64,000 nt of DNA from Polycladomyces zharkentensis (GTDB lineage Bacteria; Bacillota; Bacilli; Thermoactinomycetales; JIR-001), in NCBI RefSeq assembly GCF_016938855.1, contig NZ_JAFHAP010000009.1, forward strand, positions 1-64,000, written 5' to 3'. Below the pieces are notes generated by a model. That model saw nothing but the letters and a program-made list of their open reading frames with translations, was not told where the DNA came from and did not search any database. Position numbers and translations under genes: made by a program. Below, in pieces: positions 40,500 through 53,213 of the stretch (position 1 is its first letter; each line of letters opens with the position of its first letter).

Positions 40500-41369
40500 A
40501 TGATGAATCGTTTTGTTTTATACTTTTTCCTTCAAAAATCGCAGGGAAGGAACGACGAGAATATGGTTGGCCGAACCACCGTCCAATCATGCCCAAACAG
40601 TGACGGAAATTGAGACCAACCGAAAGCCGCAGAATCAATCTGCTGTAAATCACACCGAGAACCGTATATCTTATTATGAATTGCAAAAAGGTGATTCGGT
40701 CAATAAGAAGTATGAAATCGTACTTCACCCTTCTCCATACGATGCCCAAACCGTACTCACAGAAGAACAAAGGAAATTCTACCTTCGTTCCACACCCATA
40801 GTGGAAATCAATGACGAGGTCGAAAAGATTGCAAAGCAGTTGTGCCAAAAGAAAAAGGAAGATGAAGAAAAAGCATACGCAATTTTTGAATATATCCGTG
40901 ACAATTTCGATATGTTTATCCCCCCAAGGAACGCGGAACATCCACTTTTTTAAAAACTCGAAAGGGCGATTGTGCTGAAATGTCTTTTTTATATGCCGCA
41001 TTGTGTCGTGCACAAAATATCCCCTGCCGGATCGTCGTGGGGGCTTGGGCTGCCGGAAAAGGAGCATACCATGTCTGGAATGAGGTGTACTTGGAGGAAA
41101 AGGGTTGGGTTCCTGTCGATATGACGATGGCAAATACATTGAAAAGAGGGCCTTGGAGATATATCACGGGATTATTTCAAACTCTTACCCCAAATCAATA
41201 CTTTGGCAAACTGGAGGATCAACGAGTGATCTTTTCGGTTGAAACCGATTTGGAACCTGATCCGACATATCCGACACATGTATTGCATGATCCAGCTTCG
41301 ATTTCCAAAAAAGAAATATTACGCATAGCGAAAAGGGATTTGTATTGGGGAAGGGAGCTGCTTGACTGA
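40500..41369 (+). pseudogene. Transglutaminase-like protein with frameshift
   Basis: Two adjacent frames make one transglutaminase-superfamily protein. The first (to 40953) has a beta-rich N-terminal domain (RIWLAEPPSN, IVLHPSPYDAQ) and helix EKAYAIFEYIRDNF. The second continues KGDCAEMSFLYAALCRAQNIPCRIVVGAW, YHVWNEVYL and WVPVDMTM: catalytic Cys, His and Asp. The shift lies in a run of six T at 40946-40951; seven T would join the frames (HPLFLKTRKGDC). The best ribosome binding site and ATG (40500) are also out of frame with the first part, suggesting another indel near 40522-40527. Both could be real decay, phase-variable slippage or homopolymer errors. Confidence 0.75.
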
Positions 41370-41797: not shown

Positions 41798-42355
41798 TTA
41801 AGGTTGATAAATGTCCCAGGCGAATTTGATGGATTCTACTATGTTGTTGGCGATCGTTTCCGCGTCCAAATTGTTGGTGGTAATTTTGGAATTATGCAGG
41901 GAATAAGCTTTTCTTCTCTTGAAAAACAGGTCTTCAATCTCATGCAATGTTTTGTTTTGCAGAAGGGGACGGCTGTCGATGATCAATGGAAGTCGTTCCT
42001 TCCAAGATTCCCAGGACAGATCAAGAAAATACACAATGCATTTGGACAAACAAACCTTTCGCACTTCTTCTTGCAGATAAGCGCCTCCACCCAAGGAGAT
42101 GATCTTCAAAGTTTGGTGAGTGCAAGTATTGACGATGAATTCCTTTTCCATTCGCCGAAATTCCGCTTCGCCCATTTTGCGAAATATTTCGGTTATCGGC
42201 ATACCGTAAATTTTTTCTATTTCCCGATCAACATCAATAAAGTCACGATACAGTTTTTTGGCCACCAATTGGCCGACCGTTGTTTTGCCGACTCCCATAA
42301 ACCCTATCAATACAATATTTTTCTCACGAATCGGGATTTCTGACACATCTGACAT
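41798..42355 (-). CDS. aroK: Shikimate kinase
   Basis: Phosphorylates shikimate with ATP in aromatic amino-acid synthesis. The 185-aa protein has the Walker A motif GFMGVGKTT (residues 18-26), the shikimate-binding DVDREIE (about 41-47), the arginine in FRxMGEAEFRRME (about 58-70) and GGGAYL (about 89-94), plus a lid region with R-P-L-L. The length is normal. Other chorismate-pathway genes are absent nearby, except the type I dehydroquinase at 47756. That one is in a catabolic-looking operon, so the two need not be linked. Confidence 0.93.
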   Translation of the reverse strand: MSDVSEIPIREKNIVLIGFMGVGKTTVGQLVAKKLYRDFIDVDREIEKIYGMPITEIFRKMGEAEFRRMEKEFIVNTCTHQTLKIISLGGGAYLQEEVRKVCLSKCIVYFLDLSWESWKERLPLIIDSRPLLQNKTLHEIEDLFFKRRKAYSLHNSKITTNNLDAETIANNIVESIKFAWDIYQP

Positions 42356-42679: not shown

Positions 42680-44011
42680 TTATTTGACCTCTATCTGTAC
42701 CGCCGTTGCTTGATCCGTGATCATCTTACCGCCGGGCGTCACAGGAGTTTCGGGTGGTTCAATCGGTTCCAGATCGGTGAGCAGGAACACGTAGGCGAAA
42801 ATTCCGATAAGCAGCAAAACGGCTGCCGTCAGAAAAGCATACATGAAAGAGCCGGTTGCATCGACAATAAATCCCGTGATCATCGGGGCAAAGATGGCCA
42901 TCGCATTGTTTCCGAAGGTTAAAATCCCGATCAAAGTACCCACTGTACCCTTTGGTGCGATAAATGTCGGAATGCTGTAGGTGATCGAAGAAGTAATCAC
43001 CAGACCGCCGATGGCAACGGAAATCCAACTGACTGCTATAACCGGGTTATGGGTAAACGCCGCGCCAATGACTGACAAACCGAGAAGCATACCGATCACG
43101 AGAAAGGTTTTGCGTACCCGTGTGGGATCATATCCCTTGGAAACCAGACGATCAATCAACCAACCGCCGATCAACAGCTCCGAAACAGTCCCCACAAGCC
43201 AGGGTATTGATGCATACCAACCGGATTTCAATATCGACATGTTCATCTCTGTTGCGAGGTAACCGGGAAGCCAGGTTAGGAAAAGAAACCATGAATACCC
43301 ATATGCTGCAAATCCGATAAATGCTCCCCACACTTTGCGTTTGGTTAATAGAAAACGCAGATTTTTCAACAGACTGCCCGAGGAGTCGCCTTCGGTTTGT
43401 GCTCCCCCTTCGACGATATAGGCATACTCTTCTTTCGTCAGTTGTTTGTCTTCATGAGGATCACGGTATAAAATCCAAAACACGACCGCGTAAAACAGAC
43501 TGAGAATCGCCGTTGCCAAGAAACCGCCACGCCATCCCCACTCGGTAACCACCCAAGCGATCAGCGGCACGCCAATGGCATTCGACAACTTGGATTGTGC
43601 GTCAAAGAGTGAAGTGGCCGTACCTCGTTCTTTCTTTGGAAACCAATAGCCCGTTGCCTTTGCTGCCGCCGGAAAATACGGGGCTTCCCCGATGCCCAGC
43701 AGGACGCGGGACAAGATAATCAGTCCCTTTCCGCTGACCACTGCAGTAATCAGACAGGCTAACGACCATATGATCGTTCCGATTCGGACCACCCATTTGA
43801 CGCCGATCTTGTCCAGCAAGGCACCTGCGGGAATTTGCAGAATGGCGTAGGACCATGCGAACGCAGACAAAATTATGCCGATCTGACCGGCGGTCAGATG
43901 AAATTCTTCAGACAGGGGCTTTACAGCGACGGACATATTGATTCGGTCAAAGTAATTGATGATGACACCGACGGCAAGCAGGGATGCAATCAACCAACGT
44001 CGTTTTTTCAT
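42680..44011 (-). CDS. MFS transporter, anion:cation symporter family
   Basis: Major facilitator of 443 aa with about twelve helices. It starts KKRRWLIASLLAVGVIINYFDRINMSVA and has GIGEAPYFPAAAKATGYWFPKKERGTATSLF, both characteristic of the ACS family that imports hexuronates, glucarate, galactonate, phthalate or tartrate-type organic acids. It is transcribed away from the IclR regulator at 44679, with candidate regulator sites between them. It is therefore likely the uptake system for the acid degraded by the operon on the other strand. Confidence 0.9.
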   Translation of the reverse strand: MKKRRWLIASLLAVGVIINYFDRINMSVAVKPLSEEFHLTAGQIGIILSAFAWSYAILQIPAGALLDKIGVKWVVRIGTIIWSLACLITAVVSGKGLIILSRVLLGIGEAPYFPAAAKATGYWFPKKERGTATSLFDAQSKLSNAIGVPLIAWVVTEWGWRGGFLATAILSLFYAVVFWILYRDPHEDKQLTKEEYAYIVEGGAQTEGDSSGSLLKNLRFLLTKRKVWGAFIGFAAYGYSWFLFLTWLPGYLATEMNMSILKSGWYASIPWLVGTVSELLIGGWLIDRLVSKGYDPTRVRKTFLVIGMLLGLSVIGAAFTHNPVIAVSWISVAIGGLVITSSITYSIPTFIAPKGTVGTLIGILTFGNNAMAIFAPMITGFIVDATGSFMYAFLTAAVLLLIGIFAYVFLLTDLEPIEPPETPVTPGGKMITDQATAVQIEVK

Positions 44012-44295: not shown

Positions 44296-44309
44296 CGTAA
44301 ACGCTTACA
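44296..44309. promoter_or_regulatory. Candidate catabolite-responsive element (CRE, CcpA site)
   Basis: CGTAAACGCTTACA agrees with the Bacillus CRE consensus TGWAANCGNTNWCA at 13 of 14 positions (first base C instead of T), and GTAA/TTAC is palindromic. It lies between the divergent MFS gene and the IclR operon, where carbon-catabolite repression of an organic-acid pathway would be expected. Confidence 0.55.
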
Positions 44310-44322
44310 AAAAACAAACTTG

Positions 44323-44339
44323 ATTCCGTATAGTGTAAC
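44323..44339. promoter_or_regulatory. Candidate IclR-type operator, site 1
   Basis: ATTCCGTATAGTGTAAC shares ATTCCGT-TAGTG with site 2 at 44567-44583. It is an imperfect palindrome, in the form many IclR regulators bind. It overlaps a possible -35 (TTGATT at 44320). Confidence 0.45.
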
Positions 44340-44566
44340 ACGATTACAATGAGTGGAACTATTGACTGTATTATAGCAAACGAAATCCATGTTGTCGATA
44401 CAATATTTCGATTTATTAAAAAACACATGGTACTAAGGCGAACATCTACGGGATTTTATTGCCGAAGTGATTTTGACCGAACAAAAAATTTCGAATCAAA
44501 AAAATGCTTGAAAAGTGGAATAAGAGTGGATAAAATGAAACCGAAGGTTCCATTGGATGTAATTCG

Positions 44567-44583
44567 ATTCCGTTTAGTGGAAT
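44567..44583. promoter_or_regulatory. Candidate IclR-type operator, site 2
   Basis: ATTCC-GTTTAGT-GGAAT has perfect 5-bp arms and differs from site 1 at only a few positions. It lies 96 bases before the iclR-type gene, so it could serve autoregulation. Confidence 0.45.
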
Positions 44584-44678
44584 ATGGCATGATGATTGTA
44601 GGGATGAGGTGACAACAAACAGAAAACTGAGCCTCGATGCGTTCGTGGAGGAGATGATTGAGAAGAGGTGAAGATTCA

Positions 44679-45455
44679 GTGTCCGCTAAAACAAAGCCCC
44701 ACGAAAAGGCTGAATCGGGATTGCGAACCGTCCAACGGGCTTTGGACATTCTTTACTGCTTTACCCTGGAACAACAAGAGCTTTCTCTGACGGAAATCGC
44801 CAATAAAATTCAATTGGCCAAATCCACAACAACCCGTTTGCTCTCCACTTTGGAACAAAACAATTTCATCGTGAAAGATCCTGATACTTTGAAGTACCGC
44901 CTTGGTCAGGGATTGTATTATCTGGGGTATATTGCAGGAAAGTCCATTGAAATCAAAGAACTTGCAAAGCCCGTCATGCAACGGTTGCGGGACGAATCGC
45001 GTGAAACCGTTAACCTGTACGTTTTGGAAAACGATTCCCGGGTTTGTATCGAACAATGTGAAGGATTGCAGTCCGTTCGCCATTTGGTAAAAATCGGGGA
45101 GAAGCTGCCGCTGTGGGCAGGTGCCGGGGGAAAAGTGCTGTTAGCTTACCAACCGGCTGATTTTCAAAATCGTATTTTCGAACAAGTGCCTTCCCGTGAG
45201 CGATTGGAAGCGCTTCAACAGGAATTGCCCCAGATCAAATCGGAACGATGCGCATCCAGTATCGATGAGCGGGAGGTGGGCTCCGCCGCTGTCGCTGCAC
45301 CGATTTTCCATATCAACCACGAAGTGAAGGCTTGCTTATCCATCTCAGGTCCGACCAACCGGTTCACACCCGAGACGATCGATCGACTGAAGCAATTGGT
45401 CAAGAGAGGTGCAATGGCGATCTCAGAGAAGCTGGGATATCAGGAAAAGAGGTGA
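44679..45455 (+). CDS. IclR-family transcriptional regulator
   Basis: A 258-aa DNA-binding regulator. The N-terminal winged helix-turn-helix is recognisable from LRTVQRALDILYCF, LSLTEIANKIQLAKSTTTRLLSTLEQNNFI (about residues 36-65) and YRLGQGLYYLG (about 74-84). The C-terminal effector domain has ETVNLYVLEND and the ligand-pocket block SSIDEREVGSAAVAAPIF (about 193-210). The GTG at 44679 is preceded by GAGGTG. IclR regulators usually respond to an aromatic or organic acid and control an adjacent catabolic operon, which fits the genes downstream. The next gene starts 4 bases after its stop, so it is probably autoregulated. Confidence 0.93.
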   Translation: MSAKTKPHEKAESGLRTVQRALDILYCFTLEQQELSLTEIANKIQLAKSTTTRLLSTLEQNNFIVKDPDTLKYRLGQGLYYLGYIAGKSIEIKELAKPVMQRLRDESRETVNLYVLENDSRVCIEQCEGLQSVRHLVKIGEKLPLWAGAGGKVLLAYQPADFQNRIFEQVPSRERLEALQQELPQIKSERCASSIDEREVGSAAVAAPIFHINHEVKACLSISGPTNRFTPETIDRLKQLVKRGAMAISEKLGYQEKR

Positions 45456-45459
45456 CTGC

Positions 45460-46335
45460 ATGAAAGGCAGAAGCGCATTGGATGCGTATTCAAACGGGAA
45501 AGCCTGGTGGACCACAGCCATCAGTGATATCAAAAAAAATCAGATTACGATCAGAGGTTATCCGATTGAGGAGCTGATCGGCGAACTTTCATACAGCCAA
45601 ATGCTTTACCTGTTGTTGTGCGGGGAAGTGATCAGTCGAAGAAAGGCGGATTTGTTGGAGAGCGTGCTGGTGGCAGGGGCTGACCATGGTCCCAGAGCTC
45701 CTTCCATTGCAGCCGCTCGTATGGCGGCCACTTGCGGCATTTCGTTTAATTCCTGTGTGGCGACAGGCATGAACATGCTGGGAGATGTGCATGGTGGCGC
45801 TGTAGAAGATGCGATGAAGCTTTTTTATCAAACAAAAGAGTGGAGAGACGAACATCAATCCACTATCCAAACGGCGGTCGAGGAACAATTTACCCTGCTC
45901 CATCGACAAAAAATCAAGTTGCCCGGTTTTGGCCATCAGCTGCACGATGACGATCCCCGTGTAAAAAGGTTGTATCAATTGGCCCAAGAGCTGGTTGAGG
46001 AAGGAGAGATATCAGGTATTTATCTCTCGATCGCGCAAGAATTCAGAAGAAAATTGAAAGAGGCAAAAAACAAACCGATCACCATGAACATTGATGGTGT
46101 TTCTGCGGCCATTCAATGTGAATTGGGAATCCCGGCGGAAGCTGCGAAGGGAATCTTCGCCCTATCACGAGGAATGGGCATCGTGGCGCACGCATTTGAG
46201 GAACTGATGAATGGCGTTCTCATCAAAGGTCCTTGCCCCGACCAGGATAACCTGGTTCAATACAATGGCGCTTCCCTACGCCATTTGGTAAAGGGGGGAG
46301 AAACAGATGAGTGTAAAAGCGGAACTGTATATTGA
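45460..46335 (+). CDS. Citryl-CoA lyase-like (short citrate synthase family protein)
   Basis: Citrate-synthase-fold protein of only 291 aa (true synthases have 370-430), the size of stand-alone citryl-CoA lyases. All three catalytic positions are recognisable: His in GDVHGGAVEDAM (about residues 108-119), His in LPGFGHQLHDDDPR (about 153-166) and Asp in TMNIDGVSAAI (about 209-219). It should catalyse aldol cleavage (or the reverse) of a 3-hydroxy-3-carboxyacyl-CoA to an acyl-CoA and a 2-oxo acid. AAAGAGGTGA precedes the ATG. Its end overlaps the aldehyde dehydrogenase gene by 29 bases. Substrate may be citryl-CoA or a related CoA ester made by the CoA transferase at 52014. Confidence 0.82.
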   Translation: MKGRSALDAYSNGKAWWTTAISDIKKNQITIRGYPIEELIGELSYSQMLYLLLCGEVISRRKADLLESVLVAGADHGPRAPSIAAARMAATCGISFNSCVATGMNMLGDVHGGAVEDAMKLFYQTKEWRDEHQSTIQTAVEEQFTLLHRQKIKLPGFGHQLHDDDPRVKRLYQLAQELVEEGEISGIYLSIAQEFRRKLKEAKNKPITMNIDGVSAAIQCELGIPAEAAKGIFALSRGMGIVAHAFEELMNGVLIKGPCPDQDNLVQYNGASLRHLVKGGETDECKSGTVY

Positions 46336-47743
46336 CGGAAAATGGGTCGGCTCGGATCGGCAGCTCGTCCCCGTCGTAAACCCCTACACCGGAGAGACGA
46401 TCGGTCAACAAGTGCTGGCTACACCGGCCGACGTGGAGCAGGCGCTGCAATCCGCATTTGAAGCAAAAAAACAGATCGCGCAAATCCCCGGTTTTGAGCG
46501 GGCGAAAATCTTGAAGCATGCCGCTCGAAATCTGGAAGCGGAAAAAGAGCGGTTTGCCGGATTGATTTCGATGGAGCTGGGAAAACCGTTGAAAAATACG
46601 TTGGATGAAGTATCGAGATCCATCGAAACACTGGAGTTGTCCGGGGAAGAAGCCAAACGGCTTCATGGTGAAACCATCTATGGAGATGCATCCCCCAGGG
46701 GCACGGATGCGATGGCTGTGACGTTCCGCGTACCGGTTGGCGTTGTTGCCGCCATTACACCGTTTAACGCCCCTTTGAACTTAATCTGTCATAAAATCGG
46801 CCCGGCTTTCGCGGCCGGAAACAGCGTGATCCTCAAGCCGGCACCGCAGACGCCTTTCATCGCCGTGGAGTTGCTGAAATTATTGTTAAAGTCGGGATTT
46901 CCCGAAAAGGGGATCAATATGGTGCTGGGCGGGGCCGAGATTGGGCAACAAATCGTCAAGGATGATCGGGTGAATGTCGTATCTTTCACCGGGGGAGTGA
47001 TGGCTGGGCGGAATATCTGTGAGACGGCCGGTATGAAAAAAGTACTGCTTGAACTTGGTGGAAATGCGGCCACGATTGTGCACGAGGATGCCGATTTGCA
47101 GTATGCCGCCCGTCTGTGTGCCGCAACAGGCTTCAGCAATTCCGGACAAAGCTGCATTTCGGTCCAGCGGATCTATGTACACCATTCCGTTGCCGAACGA
47201 TTTACCGAATACTTGCGAAAAGAAGTGGAGCAGTTAAAAATCGGAAATCCCCTGTCAGAGGACACCGATGTGGGATGTATGGTCGATGAGCGGGCTGCCA
47301 TCCGGGTCATGGATTGGATTGAAGAAGCCATAGAATCCGGGGCTGAATTGATCATCGGCGGAAAACGGTCAGGAGCAACGGTAGAGCCGACAATTTTATT
47401 CAATCCGCCCCGCGATGTAAAGGTAGTGTGCGAAGAAGTATTTGGACCGGTCGTTTCCATTATTCCGTACCAAACCATCGAACGGGCGATTGAGGAAGCG
47501 AACCGTTCCCTGTTTGGACTGCAAGCCGGAATCTTTACCAACCGGATTGATTTGGCCTACAAGGTCGCCCGCCAACTGGAAGTGGGAGGTGTCGTGATCA
47601 ATGGAACATCGAACTTCCGACTGGATCATTGGCCTTATGGGGGCGTAAAACACAGCGGGATTGGACGTGAAGGTCCGCGTTATGCGATTGAGGAGATGAC
47701 GGAAACGAAAATGATTGTTTTAAAGATGCCGACTCCTATATAA
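46307..47743 (+). CDS. NAD(P)-dependent aldehyde dehydrogenase
   Basis: A 478-aa ALDH-superfamily enzyme. It has the N-terminal LYIDGKWV, cofactor loop VVSFTGGVMAG (about residues 224-234; the usual Ser after TG is Gly), catalytic Glu249 in LLELGGNA and catalytic Cys283 in SGQSCISVQR. The C-terminal PYGGVKHSGIGREGP is standard. It is more like glyceraldehyde-type and semialdehyde dehydrogenases than long-chain fatty aldehyde enzymes. It overlaps the lyase gene by 29 bases, which implies coupled translation, so it probably oxidises an aldehyde formed in the same pathway, perhaps by the ThDP enzyme at 49529. Confidence 0.9.
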   Translation: MSVKAELYIDGKWVGSDRQLVPVVNPYTGETIGQQVLATPADVEQALQSAFEAKKQIAQIPGFERAKILKHAARNLEAEKERFAGLISMELGKPLKNTLDEVSRSIETLELSGEEAKRLHGETIYGDASPRGTDAMAVTFRVPVGVVAAITPFNAPLNLICHKIGPAFAAGNSVILKPAPQTPFIAVELLKLLLKSGFPEKGINMVLGGAEIGQQIVKDDRVNVVSFTGGVMAGRNICETAGMKKVLLELGGNAATIVHEDADLQYAARLCAATGFSNSGQSCISVQRIYVHHSVAERFTEYLRKEVEQLKIGNPLSEDTDVGCMVDERAAIRVMDWIEEAIESGAELIIGGKRSGATVEPTILFNPPRDVKVVCEEVFGPVVSIIPYQTIERAIEEANRSLFGLQAGIFTNRIDLAYKVARQLEVGGVVINGTSNFRLDHWPYGGVKHSGIGREGPRYAIEEMTETKMIVLKMPTPI

Positions 47744-47755
47744 AAGGTGGTCTTG

Positions 47756-48532
47756 ATGGAACGAACAAAGAAGGTCTCAATCAGAGGAAAATCCTTGGGA
47801 ACAACGCAACCGCTCATTTGTACCCCGTTGGTCGGAAGCGATACGGATCAAATCATGTCAGAAGTGGCGAAGATCCGCCCAAAAGAGCCTGACATGGTTG
47901 AATGGCGCGTCGATTTTTTCAAGAATCTGGGGAATACGACGGCAGTCATCGAAACAGCGTCCAAGATTCGGGAAGCATTGGGCCGGATTCCGCTTTTGTT
48001 TACGATTCGCTCCGAAAAAGAAGGAGGGCAACCGATCTCTTTGACGGAGAAAGAAAAGATGCAATTATATGCAAAAGTATGCGAAAGCGGGAACATCGAT
48101 CTGATCGACTGCGAACTGTTTCACGATGATGAAGAACTTCTCTGGCTTCGCCAAGTGTCAAAGGAATATGATGTTCGTTTGATCCTGTCGTATCATCATT
48201 TTCATCTCACGCCCGGCTATGAAGAAATTCTGAACAAGCTATTGAAAGCGGAATCATATGGGGCAGATATGGCCAAAGTTGCCGTGATGCCAACTTCAAC
48301 CGATGATGTCTTGGTTTTATTAAAAGCAACGCAAGATGCGCATAAACAGATGAACATCCCGATCATTACCATATCCATGGGGAATTTGGGAGCGATCACT
48401 CGTATGATTGGTTGGTTTTTTGGTTCCTCCGTCACCTTTGCAGTGGGTGAAAATCATTCAGCCCCGGGGCAAATTCCGATTGACGATCTCAAAACAGTTC
48501 TCAAGATCATTCAAAGGTCAGCAGGTGTGTAA
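47756..48532 (+). CDS. aroD: Type I 3-dehydroquinate dehydratase-like protein
   Basis: A 258-aa Schiff-base enzyme of the type I dehydroquinase family. The conserved blocks are present: VEWRVDFF (about residues 42-49), LFTIRSEKEGG, LSYHHFHLTP with the catalytic His, MAKVAVMP with the Schiff-base Lys, and GSSVTFAVGENHSAPGQIPIDDL near the end. In anabolism it makes dehydroshikimate, but a copy in a catabolic operon suggests quinate-type degradation or a changed substrate. The ATG at 47756 has AAAGGTGG 5 bases upstream. The next gene begins 1 base after its stop. Confidence 0.9.
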   Translation: MERTKKVSIRGKSLGTTQPLICTPLVGSDTDQIMSEVAKIRPKEPDMVEWRVDFFKNLGNTTAVIETASKIREALGRIPLLFTIRSEKEGGQPISLTEKEKMQLYAKVCESGNIDLIDCELFHDDEELLWLRQVSKEYDVRLILSYHHFHLTPGYEEILNKLLKAESYGADMAKVAVMPTSTDDVLVLLKATQDAHKQMNIPIITISMGNLGAITRMIGWFFGSSVTFAVGENHSAPGQIPIDDLKTVLKIIQRSAGV

Positions 48533-48533
48533 T

Positions 48534-49532
48534 ATGTGGGAGCTATACCTGAACAAGCCACATGATATGGTGTTAAGAAAGGTTGAAAGACAACCTCCTC
48601 TAAAAGATGATGAAGTGAAAATCCAGTTAATCTATGGAGGGATTTGCGGCTCGGATCTTCGCGTTTTCAAAGGGAACCTGAAGCACGCTTCCTATCCAAT
48701 CCGGGCTGGTCATGAAGTGTTGGGTCGCGTTGTTGAGAAAGGCAAAGATGTCAAATATGAAATCGGCACGAGAGTGGTTCTTCTACCCAATACATTTTGT
48801 GGCGAATGTGATTTGTGCTCAGCCGGAAAAACCAATATCTGCAGGCACAAAAAATCATTGGGGATCAATACCGACGGTGGATTTATCGAAGAGTTGATTG
48901 TTCCGTCCAAATATGTTTTGCCGATTCCTGACGATGTACCCGATAACAAAGCGATATTGATTGAACCCTTTGCTGTCATCGTGCATGCGTTCAAAAAAGT
49001 CAACATCATGAAAGATCGTTCTGTTGCCATTGTGGGTTGCGGAAATGAGGGCATGCTGGCCGCCGTTTTGGCCCATTATTTGGGGGCGCATGTGACGGCA
49101 ATGGATATTAACCCGGCAAAACTCGAAATGGTGAGGAATCTGGGGGATATACGAACAGCCCATCCCAATGAAATCAATGGCGAAACCTTTGATATCGTGA
49201 TCGAAGCGGCCGGAACCAGGCAATCGATTGAACGGGGTTTGCAGATGGTGAATCCCGGAGGGGAAATGGTGCTGATTGGCATGACGCAGGAAGCCAGTTT
49301 TCCCGTCACGCATTTTGTCAGAAATGAGCTCACTTTATATGGATCAATTATCTACCATTATCCCTCCGACTTTTTGCAGAGCATTGAGTATCTGCGAGAT
49401 CACCGCTTCAATGTCAACGATATCATCTCCAGAATCGTGCCATTTACCAAGTTTCGGGAAGCATACGAATGGGCTTTGTCAGGAGATTACGGAAAAATAC
49501 TCTTGGATTTTAGGGGAGGGTGTGATGGATGA
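48534..49532 (+). CDS. Zinc-dependent medium-chain dehydrogenase
   Basis: Alcohol or polyol dehydrogenase of 332 aa. The catalytic zinc ligands are recognisable in GICGSD (Cys about 36) and AGHE (about 57-60). The structural zinc site is CGECDLCSAGKTNIC. A Rossmann fold follows, with VAIVGCGNEGML (about 163-174; G-C-G-N-E-G) and DINPAKLEM. It resembles L-threonine/L-idonate/sorbitol dehydrogenases. AGGTG precedes the ATG at 48534; upstream extension of the frame lies inside aroD. It ends in an ATGA overlap with the ThDP gene. Expected role: oxidation of a hydroxyl group in the pathway, with NAD or NADP. Confidence 0.9.
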   Translation: MWELYLNKPHDMVLRKVERQPPLKDDEVKIQLIYGGICGSDLRVFKGNLKHASYPIRAGHEVLGRVVEKGKDVKYEIGTRVVLLPNTFCGECDLCSAGKTNICRHKKSLGINTDGGFIEELIVPSKYVLPIPDDVPDNKAILIEPFAVIVHAFKKVNIMKDRSVAIVGCGNEGMLAAVLAHYLGAHVTAMDINPAKLEMVRNLGDIRTAHPNEINGETFDIVIEAAGTRQSIERGLQMVNPGGEMVLIGMTQEASFPVTHFVRNELTLYGSIIYHYPSDFLQSIEYLRDHRFNVNDIISRIVPFTKFREAYEWALSGDYGKILLDFRGGCDG

Positions 49533-51292
49533 AACAACCGGTTGCCCATCAGTTCGTCAGATACCTTGAAAACCGGGGAATCCAACATATTTTTGGGCTG
49601 TGCGGACACACCAATATCGCGGTGTTGAGTGCGTTGGAGAACAGTACGATCAAATTTGTGAATACGCGCCATGAACAGATTGCGGCACATATGGCCGATG
49701 GATACGCCCGGGCGAAAAAACAAACCTCGGTTGTCTTGACTCACTTGGGACCGGGTTTAACCAACGCTGCAACAGGGGTTGCCAACGCGGCCTTGGATTC
49801 GATTCCCATGGTTGTCATCGCGGGAGATGTGCCCAGCCATTTCTATGGGAAACATCCTCATCAGGAGATCAATCTTCATGCAGATGCTTCCCAATATGAA
49901 ATCTATCGTCCCTTTGTCAAACGCGCTTGGCGTGTCGATCGCCCGGATCTGTTTCCCGAAATCATGGAAAAGGCGTTTCAGTTGGCGGAAAGCGGAAGAC
50001 CGGGCCCTGTTTTGGTATCCGTTCCGATGGATATTTTCTCGAAAGAAATCGATGTTGCCTTGTTCGATCGATTGAAACATCACACCAAACACCTGCACAA
50101 GCCATCCATAGATGATGAAACCGCCAGACAAATCATCGAGAAATTGATCGAAGCGAAACATCCTCTGATCTATGCCGGAGGAGGCGTGATATTGGCGGAC
50201 GCTGCTTCCGAATTACGGGAAATGGTGGATCATCTCAGCATTCCGGTAGCTTATACCTTGATGGGGAAGGGAGCCATTTCTGATGATCATCCCTTCGCTT
50301 TGGGGATGACGGGTTTTTGGGGGACAAAGTTTGTGAATGACACCTGCCGGAATGCGGACCTGATTCTGGCGCTGGGCACCCGTTTTTCAGAGGCAGACTG
50401 CAGTTCCTGGGAACCGGAATACACATTTCATTTCCCAACGACCAAGCTGATACACATTGATATTGATCCGAATGAAATTGGAAGAAATTATCCGGCGGAG
50501 ATAGGAGTTGTCGCTGATCTGAAGCAGGCTCTCACCGTTCTGAACCGTGTTGCCAAAGAAATCATTCCGGGTGGGAGACAAAATGAAGCATTCAAACGAA
50601 AGATCGCTGAATATAAAGAAGAGTTCAGAAACAAGATTCGAGTACACGTTGAGGATCATTCCTATCCGATGAGACCGGAACGGATTTTACAAGAGGTTCG
50701 TGAGGTTTTGCCAAAAGATGCGTATATCACGACTGACGTCGGTTGGAATAAAAACGGAGTGGGACAACAGTTTCCGGTTTATGAAGCTGGCACGATCCTT
50801 ACTCCCGGCGGTTATGCAACGATGGGATTCGGTGCTCCGGCTGCCTTGGGGGCCAAGATTGCTCAGCCGGATAAAGTCGTGGTTTCCTTGGTGGGAGATG
50901 GTGGGTTTGGACAAAACCCTTCGGTACTTGCGACCGCTGCGGAAGAAAACATCCCGGTGGTTTGGGTGGTGATGAACAATTTTGCCTATGGGACGATCGC
51001 AGGTTTGCAGAAAGCTCATTACGGCACAACGCATGGCACGGTATTTCAGAGAGACGGAGAGCCTTATTCGCCGGATTTTGCAGCCATCGCAAAAGCGTAC
51101 GGAGTGGAAGGGGTAAAAATCCAATCTGCGGAAGAGTTTAAACCCGCCCTTCAACGGGCCATCGCATCCAATCAACCGTTTGTCATCGACGTGGCCATGC
51201 TAAACGAACCCGTTCCTACCGCAGGGCATTGGAATATTATGGATATTTACTCTCCCCATAAAAAAGTTCATCACGTTTCGGTATCCCATTAA
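49529..51292 (+). CDS. Thiamine-diphosphate-dependent enzyme (acetolactate synthase-like)
   Basis: A 587-aa ThDP enzyme of the acetohydroxyacid synthase/decarboxylase superfamily. The N-terminal domain has the catalytic glutamate in NTRHEQIAAHMADGYAR (about residues 44-60). The middle domain has PLIYAGGGV. The C-terminal ThDP motif is GDGGFGQNPSVLATAAEENIPVVWVVMNN: the GDG signature is followed by NN about 27 residues later, as expected. The FGLCGHTNIAVLSAL opening is unlike anabolic IlvB and indicates a separate subgroup. No small regulatory subunit is nearby. It probably decarboxylates or ligates a 2-oxo acid released by the lyase. A 4-base overlap links it to the dehydrogenase. Confidence 0.88.
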   Translation: MKQPVAHQFVRYLENRGIQHIFGLCGHTNIAVLSALENSTIKFVNTRHEQIAAHMADGYARAKKQTSVVLTHLGPGLTNAATGVANAALDSIPMVVIAGDVPSHFYGKHPHQEINLHADASQYEIYRPFVKRAWRVDRPDLFPEIMEKAFQLAESGRPGPVLVSVPMDIFSKEIDVALFDRLKHHTKHLHKPSIDDETARQIIEKLIEAKHPLIYAGGGVILADAASELREMVDHLSIPVAYTLMGKGAISDDHPFALGMTGFWGTKFVNDTCRNADLILALGTRFSEADCSSWEPEYTFHFPTTKLIHIDIDPNEIGRNYPAEIGVVADLKQALTVLNRVAKEIIPGGRQNEAFKRKIAEYKEEFRNKIRVHVEDHSYPMRPERILQEVREVLPKDAYITTDVGWNKNGVGQQFPVYEAGTILTPGGYATMGFGAPAALGAKIAQPDKVVVSLVGDGGFGQNPSVLATAAEENIPVVWVVMNNFAYGTIAGLQKAHYGTTHGTVFQRDGEPYSPDFAAIAKAYGVEGVKIQSAEEFKPALQRAIASNQPFVIDVAMLNEPVPTAGHWNIMDIYSPHKKVHHVSVSH

Positions 51293-51322
51293 TTCATCAT
51301 AAAAAATCAGGAGGGTAACAAA

Positions 51323-51736
51323 ATGAGTAACCAAATCAAGGAAAAGGAAGAAATGAAAATCAAAGTGTTGGATCAATTCAAGGATGCCAAAACATTGTGG
51401 CTCGGATTGGAACAGCCGGAATTGAATCAGATCCGCAAGGTATTCCAACTGATCACCCCGGAAACTGTAGGTTCAAAGCACATCATGGCGGGAATCACCA
51501 TTTTTTCTCCGGGAGAAGCGAGTTCTCTTCACAACCATCCAGGTTCCGAGGAAATGGATGTGGTGATCAAAGGTTCCGGAGAAGTCGTCGATGCGACCGG
51601 CAATCGACGTCCGTTTAAGGAAGGTGATTTCATGTTTATTCCGGAGGGGGAATATCACCAGCATGTCAACACTGGTGATGAACCGCTTTGGTTATTGTGG
51701 TGCTACAGTCCGCAAGGATATTTGCCGAAGGATTGA
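51323..51736 (+). CDS. Cupin-domain protein
   Basis: A 137-aa single-domain cupin. Motif 1 is HNHPGSEEMDVVIKGSG (about residues 73-89), with two His and one Glu as metal ligands. Motif 2 is GDFMFIPEGEYHQHVN (about 101-116), with the third His. GGAGGGTAAC precedes the ATG. Small cupins in catabolic operons act as isomerases, decarboxylases, dioxygenases or sensors; the sequence does not decide. Spacing of 30 bases to the ThDP gene supports operon membership. Confidence 0.88.
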   Translation: MSNQIKEKEEMKIKVLDQFKDAKTLWLGLEQPELNQIRKVFQLITPETVGSKHIMAGITIFSPGEASSLHNHPGSEEMDVVIKGSGEVVDATGNRRPFKEGDFMFIPEGEYHQHVNTGDEPLWLLWCYSPQGYLPKD

Positions 51737-51779
51737 ATCAGAAGGGGGAGCTCCCCCCTTCTGGAACATGATGAGGAGA

Positions 51780-52005
51780 GAATGCGATGAGTTCCACATA
51801 CAGTGGATTATTCAGCTATTTTGGCGATGATGCCCTGACCTCATTGTTGGCATCGAGGCTCGCTCCATCCCGGAAAAAGGGGAAGAAGCTGATACTACGA
51901 AAATGTCGGGTATGAAATGAAAAAATGATTGAAACCTGCCGTGATACCAAAGAATTGGTATTGTTGCCCGGACTTGTCGATCAGCATACTCAACGAGCGA
52001 AAGAG
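51780..52005 (+). pseudogene. Amidohydrolase (dihydropyrimidinase/allantoinase-like) gene remnant
   Basis: Between the cupin and CoA transferase genes the sequence encodes, in shifting frames, IVGIEARSIPEKGEEADTTK (about 51845-51905) and ELVLLPGLVDQHTQ (about 51950-51992). Together they match the N-terminal region of dihydroorotase-type amidohydrolases, which read D-G-K-I-V-x-I and L-V-L-P-G-L-V-D-x-H-x-H. The metal-binding HxH is lost (HTQ) and the rest of the enzyme is gone, replaced by the start of the next gene. A 42-codon frame (51787-51915) is part of this remnant, not a gene. Confidence 0.55.
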
Positions 52006-52013
52006 GGAGGACG

Positions 52014-53213
52014 ATGAGCCGATTAGCGTTGGAAGGAGTAAAAGTACTCGATGTCTCGACCATGATCGCTGCCCCGTTTGGTGCGGTATTGTTGGGGGAT
52101 TTCGGTGCAGATGTCATCAAAATTGAAATGCCCGGCAAAGGGGATACGCTTCGGCACGTAGGTCCTTTTTTCAATGATGAGCCGTTACGCTGGCCCGGTT
52201 TGTCCAGAAATAAAAAATCGTTGACGCTCGATCTGCATAAACCGGAAGCTATCGAAATCTTTAAACAGTTGGTCGAGAAAGTGGATGTGTTAATTGAAAA
52301 CTTTCGCCCCGGTACATTGGAGAAGTGGGGAATTGGATACGATGTTCTAAAGGAAATCAACCCTCGATTGATCATGATCAGAGTATCCGGATATGGACAA
52401 ACGGGACCCTTTCGGGAAAAAGCGGGCTTTGGGACTCCCGCTACAGCCTTTAGTGGATTTACTTATCTCCAGGGTTATCCGGATCGGCCTCCCGTAAGCC
52501 CTCCCTTTTCATTGACGGACTATATTACCGGGATTTATGTTGCCTTTGCGGCTGTTACCGCCCTCTATCATCGCGACGTTCATCCGAATGGAAGCGGCCA
52601 AATGGTGGACATTGCCTTGTACGAATCCGTTTTCCGAATGATGGAATTCTTGATTGCCGAATATGAAAAACTGGGCAAAGTGCGAGAAAGATCACCTGGT
52701 TTAAGTGGACATTCCAGTCCGGCGGGTACGTTTATGACAAAGGACGGGCACTGGGTCGTGCTGGTAACCAGCACGGATTCGACTTTTGAAAGACTTGCGA
52801 AAGCGATGAACAGAGAAGACCTGCTCTTAAATGAGAACTTTTGCACCAATGAACAGAGACTGAAACACCACGACGAAACCAATCAGATTGTGGCGGACTG
52901 GATTCGATCCTTGCCGAGAGATGAACTGTTACAACGCCTGGATGAATATGGGGTTCCTGTCAGTCCCATCTTGAGTATTCAAGATATTTTCGAGCATCCT
53001 CATTATCAGGCGCGGGAAAACATCATTGAGGTTGCCCATCCTCGCCTTGGTAAGATCAAAGTTCCGGGATTTGTTCCGAAATTTGAAAAAACGCCGGGGA
53101 GCATTCGGCAGATCGCCCCTGACCTTGGGGAACACAATCATGAGATTTTAACCACATGGCTGGGATTGTCTGCATCGGAGATAGAAGAATTGAAAAAGAA
53201 AAAAGTGATCTGA
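52014..53213 (+). CDS. Class III CoA transferase (CaiB/BaiF family)
   Basis: CoA-transferase of 399 aa. The N-terminal GVKVLDVSTMIAAPFGAVLLGDFGADVIKIE is the CoA-binding Rossmann motif, and the catalytic aspartate lies in GQMVDIALYES (about residue 201). The sequence is closer to succinyl-CoA:malate/citramalate and formyl-CoA transferase types than to the racemase-like paralogue at 21866, since the HDxNY motif is lacking. GAGGGAGGACG precedes the ATG. As the last gene of the operon, it is expected to load CoA onto a dicarboxylic or tricarboxylic acid that the citryl-CoA-lyase-like enzyme can cleave. Confidence 0.88.
   Translation: MSRLALEGVKVLDVSTMIAAPFGAVLLGDFGADVIKIEMPGKGDTLRHVGPFFNDEPLRWPGLSRNKKSLTLDLHKPEAIEIFKQLVEKVDVLIENFRPGTLEKWGIGYDVLKEINPRLIMIRVSGYGQTGPFREKAGFGTPATAFSGFTYLQGYPDRPPVSPPFSLTDYITGIYVAFAAVTALYHRDVHPNGSGQMVDIALYESVFRMMEFLIAEYEKLGKVRERSPGLSGHSSPAGTFMTKDGHWVVLVTSTDSTFERLAKAMNREDLLLNENFCTNEQRLKHHDETNQIVADWIRSLPRDELLQRLDEYGVPVSPILSIQDIFEHPHYQARENIIEVAHPRLGKIKVPGFVPKFEKTPGSIRQIAPDLGEHNHEILTTWLGLSASEIEELKKKKVI

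Follow-up and report, generated by a model that had tools for sequence, protein, structure and literature searches.

A conserved catabolic module built on a thiamine diphosphate enzyme and a citrate-synthase-fold lyase in Polycladomyces zharkentensis, with a proposed role in the non-aromatizing breakdown of quinate or shikimate

We analyzed a 64,000-nucleotide stretch of Polycladomyces zharkentensis DNA (NCBI RefSeq assembly GCF_016938855.1, contig NZ_JAFHAP010000009.1, positions 1 to 64,000 of the forward strand; hereafter the window) and, within it, a plus-strand operon encoding an IclR-type regulator, a citrate-synthase-fold coenzyme A (CoA) lyase, an aldehyde dehydrogenase (ALDH), a type I 3-dehydroquinate dehydratase (dehydroquinase), a zinc-dependent alcohol dehydrogenase, a thiamine diphosphate (ThDP) enzyme, a small cupin, and a class III CoA transferase. 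The core of this gene set (lyase, ALDH, and ThDP enzyme) recurs in Bacillota, Pseudomonadota, Actinomycetota, and 1 Chloroflexota contig, with companion genes that replace one another from locus to locus and with shikimate-type genes close by. We consider it moderately probable that the operon imports quinate and/or shikimate and degrades them without aromatization, by ring opening followed by a CoA lyase reaction.

Conservation of the module

The operon was compared with its relatives through 53 different loci carrying the ThDP enzyme, the window itself being outside the 53. The same 299 Bacilli-class genomes, including the window's own, were surveyed once with the lyase (E <= 1e-40) and once with the ThDP gene (E <= 1e-170), the latter so that the result would not favor loci chosen by their lyase, and contigs of named genomes were scanned with a lyase alignment, of which the best 80 of 147 relatives were kept. 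The presence of a gene in a locus was defined by tblastn bit scores, with a general threshold of 60 and thresholds for the ThDP gene of 500 in the named lyase loci and 400 in the ThDP loci; matches as weak as those to AroK at 32-34% identity may therefore be unrelated kinases. Dehydroquinase types I and II were assigned across the loci, with the families verified on single members. Loci L014 (=L026), L018 (=L029), L022 (=L030), L023 (=L036), and L118 (a repeat of L074) were excluded as repeats, and L025 was excluded because the ThDP gene is absent and the lyase broken. The set includes loci from the same genome (L015, L113, and L114 from G095; L017 and L115 from G116), and several loci are cut by contig or locus ends.

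The lyase was identified in 13 of the 299 Bacilli-class genomes, scattered over families, and 12 of the 13 also had the ThDP gene, a co-occurrence exceeding chance; the thirteenth is the genome of L025. Conversely, the ThDP gene was present in 16 genomes, 12 of them lyase carriers. Besides the window, 12 other Bacilli lyase neighborhoods were identified, 11 of which include a ThDP gene whose product is 69-83% identical to that of the window, and no lyase match was found in the 2 same-genus genomes listed (E <= 1e-40). Among the best 80 of 147 relatives from named genomes, 33 lyase loci had the ThDP gene, comprising all 17 from Bacilli, 13 from Alphaproteobacteria, and 3 from Chloroflexota or Actinomycetota. 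ThDP enzyme identity to the window's protein was 69-86% in Bacilli loci, 62-66% in alphaproteobacterial loci, and 50-52% in Chloroflexota and Actinomycetota; in Azoarcus, the ThDP enzyme is 77% identical and the lyase only 43%. Of 398 genomes in the phylum to which the Ruegeria genome (G299) belongs, 5 had the ThDP gene (E <= 1e-150), with an adjoining lyase in 4 (1 being the L074 contig again) and an HpcH/HpaI-type aldolase instead in the remaining locus, L117. In the genus around the Bacillus safensis genome, 12 of 44 genomes had the ThDP gene at 75-76% identity, and the operon is carried by B. safensis FO-36b; B. xiamenensis, Terribacillus, and Ruegeria are further carriers. Starting from the ThDP side, the citrate-synthase-fold lyase was present in 45 of the 53 loci. 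A preliminary description of this DNA had grouped the genes into a single catabolic operon, and the comparison bears this out: the core genes stay together in distant relatives and do not fall into unrelated operons, while the full set varies.

Some loci depart from this pattern. L025 (genome G055) is a decayed module, with fragmented lyase and IclR genes, no match to the ThDP gene anywhere in its genome at E <= 1e-170, and CoA transferase and HMG-CoA-lyase-like (3-hydroxy-3-methylglutaryl-CoA lyase-like) matches adjoining it. In genome G095, 3 ThDP copies (L015, L113, and L114) lie within ~50 kb with different companions (AroD, AroE-like, and AroQ); L113 and L114 share ABC-transporter-like genes that are nearly identical by eye. 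Acyl-CoA dehydrogenase, CoA-ligase-like, and enoyl-CoA hydratase genes lie near the ThDP copies of L113-L115 (by eye in L113 and L114), and the hydroxycinnamate half of chlorogenic acid might be degraded there beside the quinate half. The other 47 lyase loci among the best 80 of 147 had no ThDP gene; they belong mostly to Actinomycetota and Alphaproteobacteria, include a CoA transferase in 39, IclR in 27, and TctA in 25, and perhaps handle an imported hydroxy acid.

Shikimate-type genes around the ThDP gene

A dehydroquinase, AroE-like, or QuiC/dehydratase-like gene was identified in 39 of the 53 ThDP loci, or in 42 when shikimate kinase is counted. Among the best 80 of 147 lyase loci, these genes went together with the ThDP gene: dehydroquinase was found in 12 of 33 loci with it vs 0 of 47 without, AroE-like genes in 9 vs 0, QuiC-like genes in 14 vs 3, and shikimate kinase-like genes in 11 vs 1 (Fisher p of 6e-6 for dehydroquinase and 2e-4 for AroE-like, relatedness ignored). 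The 3 QuiC-like exceptions (L073, L092, and L104) look like the same cassette, cut or rearranged. QuiC-like proteins of L063, L084, and other alphaproteobacterial loci are two-domain proteins adjoining the ring-opening cassette, and those of L063 and L084 matched QuiC over nearly its full length at 542 and 461 bits, below the cut-off of 1200. The AroE-like protein of L084 passed PRK12549 (381.6 bits vs a cut-off of 235). On a plasmid of Azoarcus sp. KH32C (L106), an annotated row consists of CoA transferase, citryl-CoA lyase, thiamine pyrophosphate-binding protein, shikimate dehydrogenase, and type I 3-dehydroquinate dehydratase, preceded by 2 genes that match parts of the 2 QuiC halves, the halves being separate genes here. 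On a Streptomyces plasmid, too, an AroE-like gene lies downstream of the ThDP gene, separated from it by genes that resemble an ABC transporter.

Because 2 unrelated dehydroquinase families, shikimate dehydrogenases, QuiC-like dehydratases, and shikimate kinase recur around the ThDP gene, the genomic context points to a cyclic substrate of the shikimate/quinate type. The hydroxy-polycarboxylic acid that the preliminary description had put forward as substrate is not supported, although quinate and shikimate, the acids favored by the context, stood on its list of candidates. Some different cyclic or branched hydroxy acid, also handled by enzymes of the dehydroquinase family, is a rather improbable substrate. 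No shikimate-type gene was in view in 11 of the 53 loci, the transporters vary among MFS, TTT, and TRAP types (with ABC-like genes near L107 and in L113-L115, by eye), and the MFS protein of the window is nearest to a galactonate-transporter model, below its cut-off, all of which would suit such an acid; the recurrence of both dehydroquinase families and of AroE-like, QuiC-like, and AroK-like genes around the ThDP gene argues for the shikimate/quinate type.

Very unlikely, in our view, is an ordinary protocatechuate route in which the lyase and ThDP genes have another task, such as handling a hydroxycinnamate or hydroxy acid that occurs alongside. QuiC-like dehydratases are indeed encoded in the alphaproteobacterial and Azoarcus clusters, and 2 LigB-type dioxygenase-family genes were identified elsewhere in the window genome (C8:377219-377902 and C17:47956-48690). 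However, intradiol dioxygenase (PF00775) had no match in this genome, with the same model matching 4 of 14 control genomes; no dehydroshikimate dehydratase family was found among the 9 operon and transporter proteins, the rest of the genome not having been searched for QuiC or AsbF; and the conserved core of lyase, ALDH, and ThDP enzyme has no place in that route. The second of the LigB-type genes has a ThDP-domain match (C17:52227-53318) a few kb away.

Exchange of parts between loci

Companion genes of the ThDP enzyme substitute for one another among the 53 loci. In 22 of them, a SauS-like CoA-acylating ALDH (479.3 bits vs a SauS cut-off of 600), found for instance in Brevibacillus and Ruegeria, replaces the ALDH, and 3 loci have no ALDH. 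Relatives of the CoA transferase were present in 25 of the 28 loci with the non-acylating ALDH vs 0 of the 22 with the acylating enzyme. This exchange of ALDH plus CoA transferase for an acylating ALDH suggests that oxidation of an aldehyde to a thioester precedes the lyase and, therefore, that a ThDP step forming the aldehyde comes before both. CoA activation feeding the lyase, as first described for this DNA, is supported, and the order given there is not: the CoA transferase was to activate an imported hydroxy-polycarboxylic acid and the lyase to cleave it first, with the ThDP enzyme and ALDH processing the resulting 2-oxo acid last. That scheme agrees with each enzyme family taken singly, and the lyase sets that lack the ThDP gene but have a CoA transferase, often with TctA or IclR, may work so; for the operon of the window, it is extremely unlikely, as it leaves the dehydroquinase and the shikimate-type genes unexplained and gives no account of the loss of the transferase with the acylating ALDH.

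A second exchange concerns a TIM-barrel protein, present in 36 of the 53 loci, and the cupin, present in 9; the 2 never occur together, and 8 loci have neither. Across 16 sequences, the TIM-barrel residues E152, D182, H208, and E256 do not vary; they make up the usual metal site. The profile and structure model of the TIM barrel came closest to IolI, the Listeria protein Lmo2234, and 5hmq, and AsbF and IolE ranked lower; PMC7442255 gives 5hmq the name QuiC1. We rejected the TIM barrel as an ordinary dehydroshikimate dehydratase on the way to protocatechuate, since that reaction has no place beside the lyase and since the alphaproteobacterial clusters hold the TIM barrel together with a separate QuiC-like gene. 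Likewise, dehydroquinase of type I was found in 13 loci and of the unrelated type II in 9, never both.

The lyase is exchanged as well. Of the 8 loci without the citrate-synthase-fold lyase, L110, L111, and L112 carry an HMG-CoA lyase in the cluster, and the genomes of L113-L115 hold the lyase at another ThDP locus. In the Bacilli survey, the HMG-CoA lyase gene lies within the cluster in G005 and G040 (NF004283, 363.9 and 323.1 bits vs a cut-off of 246; Pfam HMGL-like), with 3-hydroxy-3-methylglutaryl-CoA lyase the nearest solved chain to the G040 protein, and ~11 kb beyond the ThDP gene in G170 (329.3 bits), near the TIM barrel of the module; in G035, neither citryl-CoA lyase nor HMG-CoA lyase was found within ~57 kb. 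The clusters with HMG-CoA lyase belong to 3 genomes without citryl-CoA lyase at E <= 1e-40. These HMG-CoA lyases also give weak matches to homocitrate synthase models, at scores far under the cut-offs, which fits a homocitryl-type substrate but is no proof of it.

The lyase and the ThDP enzyme

The lyase passed NF004864 (379.1 bits vs a curated cut-off of 261) and is thus a member of the 'citryl-CoA lyase' family. Its residues H76, H159, and D212 are invariant in 11 aligned sequences, the window's included, and a catalytic role is assigned to them from citrate synthase. The nearest solved chain is the citryl-CoA lyase 6hxp, which has GHRYY at the pocket motif where the aligned Bacilli lyases have GHQLH and which also differs in the IKGPCPN stretch near the C-terminus. 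A third form of the motif, GHRFH, was found in 39 of the 41 lyases labeled as lacking a ThDP gene (the other 2 represent 1 locus cut by a contig end) and in 15 of the 42 with one. We propose that the protein acts as a retro-Claisen lyase. Citryl-CoA lyase proper (EC 4.1.3.34) splits (3S)-citryl-CoA to acetyl-CoA and oxaloacetate, and the natural substrate of the protein is probably not citryl-CoA, because HMG-CoA lyase stands in for it in 3 genomes. The ThDP-linked lyases fall in separate clades of the lyase tree: the best tree needs 9 changes, of which well-supported branches force 5 or more, vs 26.9 expected on shuffling, some of the 'without' labels being due to contig ends. The pairing with the ThDP gene was therefore retained, or re-established, as the lyase itself changed.

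The ThDP enzyme exceeded no NCBIfam cut-off in the best 25 of 57 families. Within these 25, acetolactate synthase (TIGR00118, 459.4 bits, below the cut-off of 538.35) and glyoxylate carboligase (GCL, 342.4 bits, below 791) were rejected as identities. It is not IolD either, scoring 281 bits against TIGR04377 with a cut-off of 715, and is still the best match to the IolD model in its genome. Its solved relatives include acetolactate synthases at 275 bits, BbmA at 273, and glyoxylate carboligase at 261. We propose that it is a ring-opening hydrolase or lyase and the anchor of the module.

Proposed pathway

Observation covers the gene set, its conservation, the exchanges of parts, and the shikimate-type surroundings; the substrate, the order of the steps, and every intermediate, homocitryl-CoA and 2-oxoglutarate included, are inferred, with inositol catabolism as the analogy. 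A dehydrogenase (zinc type in the window; AroE-like or Gfo/Idh-like elsewhere) would yield the 3-keto acid. Shikimate would enter through the dehydroquinase working in the hydration direction, from 3-dehydroshikimate to 3-dehydroquinate, which would restore the tertiary alcohol by the carboxylate; the dehydroquinase would belong in the set because 3-dehydroshikimate lacks that alcohol. A metal-dependent enzyme, the cupin in the window and the IolI/QuiC-like TIM barrel elsewhere, would then form an alpha-diketone, most likely by removal of the C5 hydroxyl. QuiC and AsbF act on 3-dehydroshikimate by taking off its C5 hydroxyl; on 3-dehydroquinate, an identical elimination would yield the 3,4-diketone and would not by itself aromatize the ring. 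IolD and cyclohexane-1,2-dione hydrolase open cyclic diketone-type substrates with ThDP, and the ThDP enzyme of the module would likewise open the ring between C3 and C4, leaving an aldehyde at C3 (homocitrate semialdehyde). In the balance, dehydroquinate (C7H10O6) would lose and regain water to give a ring-opened aldehyde of the same formula, C7H10O6. ALDH and CoA transferase, or the acylating ALDH elsewhere, would convert C3 to a CoA thioester, which would be homocitryl-CoA if C5 had been dehydrated. Such a thioester, CoA-S-CO-CH2-C(OH)(COO-)-CH2-R, would be an analogue of citryl-CoA, C1(OH)(COO-) of quinate being flanked by 2 CH2 groups. The citrate-synthase-fold lyase, or HMG-CoA lyase in some relatives, would finally split it into acetyl-CoA and a 2-oxo acid (2-oxoglutarate); both lyase families catalyze the retro-Claisen split of CoA thioesters that bear a tertiary alcohol at C3.

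Acetyl-CoA and 2-oxoglutarate would need no further genes, which is consistent with the neighborhoods: no aldolase was seen by eye among the unlabeled neighbor families common to at least 3 of 40 ThDP loci, rarer neighbors being unjudged. A route without the dehydration appears unlikely. In it, the ThDP enzyme would directly split 3-dehydroquinate, or a 3,4-diketone that the zinc dehydrogenase had formed, the lyase would release acetyl-CoA and 4-hydroxy-2-oxoglutarate (or its semialdehyde), and an aldolase would yield pyruvate and glyoxylate. Such a route would give the zinc dehydrogenase a second oxidation to perform; the HpcH/HpaI-type aldolase gene of L117 stands directly after the ThDP gene, and L015, L035, L107, L108, L112, and L115 show no cupin, TIM barrel, or QuiC/dehydratase-like gene. 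For L112, however, the adjoining stretch L123 supplies a TIM barrel, no aldolase recurs among the neighbors judged, and a cupin or a TIM barrel, never both, is present in 45 of the 53 loci. For want of a recurrent aldolase by eye, 4-hydroxy-2-oxoglutarate was set aside as the first-choice product; L117 keeps it as a rival.

The more specific version of the non-aromatizing pathway, running through 1-hydroxy-3,4-dioxocyclohexane-1-carboxylate and homocitryl-CoA to acetyl-CoA and 2-oxoglutarate, is offered tentatively; it would be an undescribed pathway that spans phyla. It would include a new ThDP ring hydrolase and, as part of the same joint reading, a new dehydroquinate C5-dehydratase and a natural homocitryl-CoA lyase each occurring in 2 unrelated folds, cupin and TIM barrel for the former and citrate synthase and HMG-CoA lyase for the latter.

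Several observations weigh against the proposed pathway. L117 has an HpcH/HpaI aldolase and no lyase, L109 (with L120 and L121) holds neither kind of lyase, and Streptomyces L107 holds both. The 11 loci without a shikimate-type gene in view count here as well, as do the 2 LigB-type genes of the window genome. On the ThDP tree, the exchanges go in the expected direction but comprise 3-7 independent pairs each, and none reaches p 0.05; well-supported branches gave 3 pairs for acylating ALDH vs transferase, 6 for cupin vs TIM barrel (3-5 informative), 3 for the 2 lyases (1-2 informative), and 7 for the 2 dehydroquinases (3-4 informative). The window operon contains no TIM barrel and no QuiC-like gene, and the putative role of the cupin rests on the observation that no locus holds both it and the TIM barrel. 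The QuiC-like genes of the alphaproteobacterial clusters could equally be compatible with an aromatic route there. Stereochemically, 3-dehydroquinate (1R) would give (R)-homocitryl-CoA, the opposite face from (3S)-citryl-CoA, so the lyase would have to bind its 2-oxo acid the other way round. Published Biolog phenotypes for quinic acid are indirect, mixed, and suggestive at best. B. stratosphericus PD6 and B. altitudinis BD4 belong to the B. pumilus group. Table 1 of PMC6708576 gives quinic acid as positive for these 2 strains and for Pantoea dispersa PG1 and as negative for the 9 other Bacillus isolates, B. safensis BD9 among them, although strain FO-36b of that species carries the operon.

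If the proposal is true, it would describe a ring-opening route without a need for oxygen, leading straight into central metabolism, and would provide a role for 4 kinds of protein: the widespread 'citryl-CoA lyase', the 'acetolactate synthase-like' protein, the 'sugar isomerase', and the cupin.

The operon and its neighbors in the window

All genes named in the preliminary description were identified at 44658-53213 on the plus strand, with the MFS gene facing them on the minus strand, and its family readings were confirmed: NF004864 and TIGR01093 exceeded curated cut-offs, while the IclR, ALDH, zinc dehydrogenase, ThDP, cupin, CoA transferase, and MFS proteins exceeded Pfam cut-offs. The IclR-type regulator (44658-45455; Pfam IclR_C and HTH_IclR) is followed by the lyase (45460-46335, 291 aa, start chosen by us), the non-acylating ALDH (46307-47743; Pfam Aldedh, 515.7 bits), and the type I 3-dehydroquinate dehydratase AroD (47747-48532; TIGR01093, 215.5 bits vs a cut-off of 139.3). 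The genome gave no type I match other than AroD, and contig C8 carries a separate type II match (AroQ). Next come the zinc-dependent alcohol dehydrogenase (48534-49532; Pfam ADH_N and ADH_zinc_N; start at 48534 chosen by us), proposed to be a dehydrogenase of the quinate/shikimate type, and the ThDP enzyme (49529-51292), with 3 TPP_enzyme domains (Pfam). The small metal-type cupin (51323-51736; Pfam Cupin_2) has residues H70, H72, E76, E77, and H112 invariant in 8 aligned sequences, the window's included. We propose it as a dehydratase or isomerase in the slot held elsewhere by the TIM-barrel enzyme, for which no match was found in the window genome (a search without a positive control); the structure model of the cupin was too weak for a structure search (mean predicted local distance difference test score of 69.2). 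The class III CoA transferase (52014-53213; Pfam CoA_transf_3, 403.1 bits) closes the row.

Spacings, taken from open reading frame coordinates and chosen start codons, were 4 bp between IclR and lyase, a 29-bp overlap of lyase and ALDH, 3 bp between ALDH and AroD, 1 bp between AroD and the zinc dehydrogenase, a 4-bp overlap of the latter with the ThDP gene, and 30 bp between the ThDP and cupin genes. The overlaps and tiny gaps attributed to the whole row are thus present from IclR through cupin, but not between cupin and CoA transferase, where the gap is 277 bp; a simple scan listed no terminator-like site on the plus strand in this gap. Between the MFS and IclR genes, no operator palindrome was found at the settings used, and counts of promoter- and terminator-like sites were at the level of shuffled sequence.

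The divergent MFS transporter of the galactonate/ACS type (42680-44011, minus strand; TIGR00893, 293 bits, below the cut-off of 395) is probably the importer of the acid; relatives 63-75% identical lie close to the module in L015, L017, L018, and L109. Absent from the preliminary description was a shikimate-kinase-like protein of the AroK family (41798-42355, minus strand, 185 aa; Pfam SKI, 150.9 bits, under the listed NCBIfam shikimate kinase cut-offs), a possible neighbor of the module with relatives in 19 of the 53 loci, a few of them only 32-34% identical. Farther upstream, 2 plus-strand reading frames (40513-40953 and 40980-41369) in different frames appear by eye to be 1 transglutaminase-like gene broken by a frameshift.

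Comparison with known systems

Quinate and shikimate are abundant plant acids whose described bacterial breakdown proceeds through protocatechuate, with oxygen needed for ring cleavage. The module shares with that route (qui, qsu, and qa genes) the dehydroquinase, dehydrogenases of the quinate/shikimate type, and, in some clusters, QuiC-like proteins, but would work without an aromatic intermediate; the window operon has no dehydroshikimate dehydratase and the genome no intradiol dioxygenase match. A targeted literature search, with subscription journals largely outside it, returned no description of such a quinate/shikimate pathway. Ilyobacter insuetus uses a route that avoids aromatic intermediates and is not known to have genes assigned to it. 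This fermenting anaerobe, specialized on hydroaromatic compounds, was named in 2002, according to a title cited in PMC3035301.

Among single enzymes, the lyase resembles citryl-CoA lyase and the C-terminal domain of ATP-citrate lyase (6hxp and 6hxn) in family, fold, and the conserved His/His/Asp, but departs from 6hxp in the GHQLH motif of its Bacilli members (vs GHRYY) and in the IKGPCPN stretch. Cyclohexane-1,2-dione hydrolase (2pgn), which hydrolyzes a cyclic 1,2-diketone, is also a ThDP enzyme and a detectable relative of the window's protein (194.6 bits), although acetolactate synthases, BbmA, and glyoxylate carboligase score higher.

The closest parallel in overall plan is myo-inositol catabolism, in which the steps are carried out by the dehydrogenase IolG, the dehydratase IolE, the ThDP ring hydrolase IolD, and the CoA-acylating dehydrogenase IolA. 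In both systems, a cyclitol-like ring would be oxidized, dehydrated by a xylose-isomerase-fold enzyme, opened with ThDP, and converted from aldehyde to CoA thioester; moreover, the TIM-barrel model of the module is nearest to IolI, and the window's ThDP enzyme is the best match to the IolD model in its genome. Unlike the inositol enzyme, however, that protein falls below the IolD cut-off, and a retro-Claisen lyase and a dehydroquinase would take the place of the kinase and aldolase of the inositol pathway. Every enzyme of the module comes from a known superfamily, and the chemical plan is unusual. By this analogy, the module would work like inositol catabolism without being a member of it.

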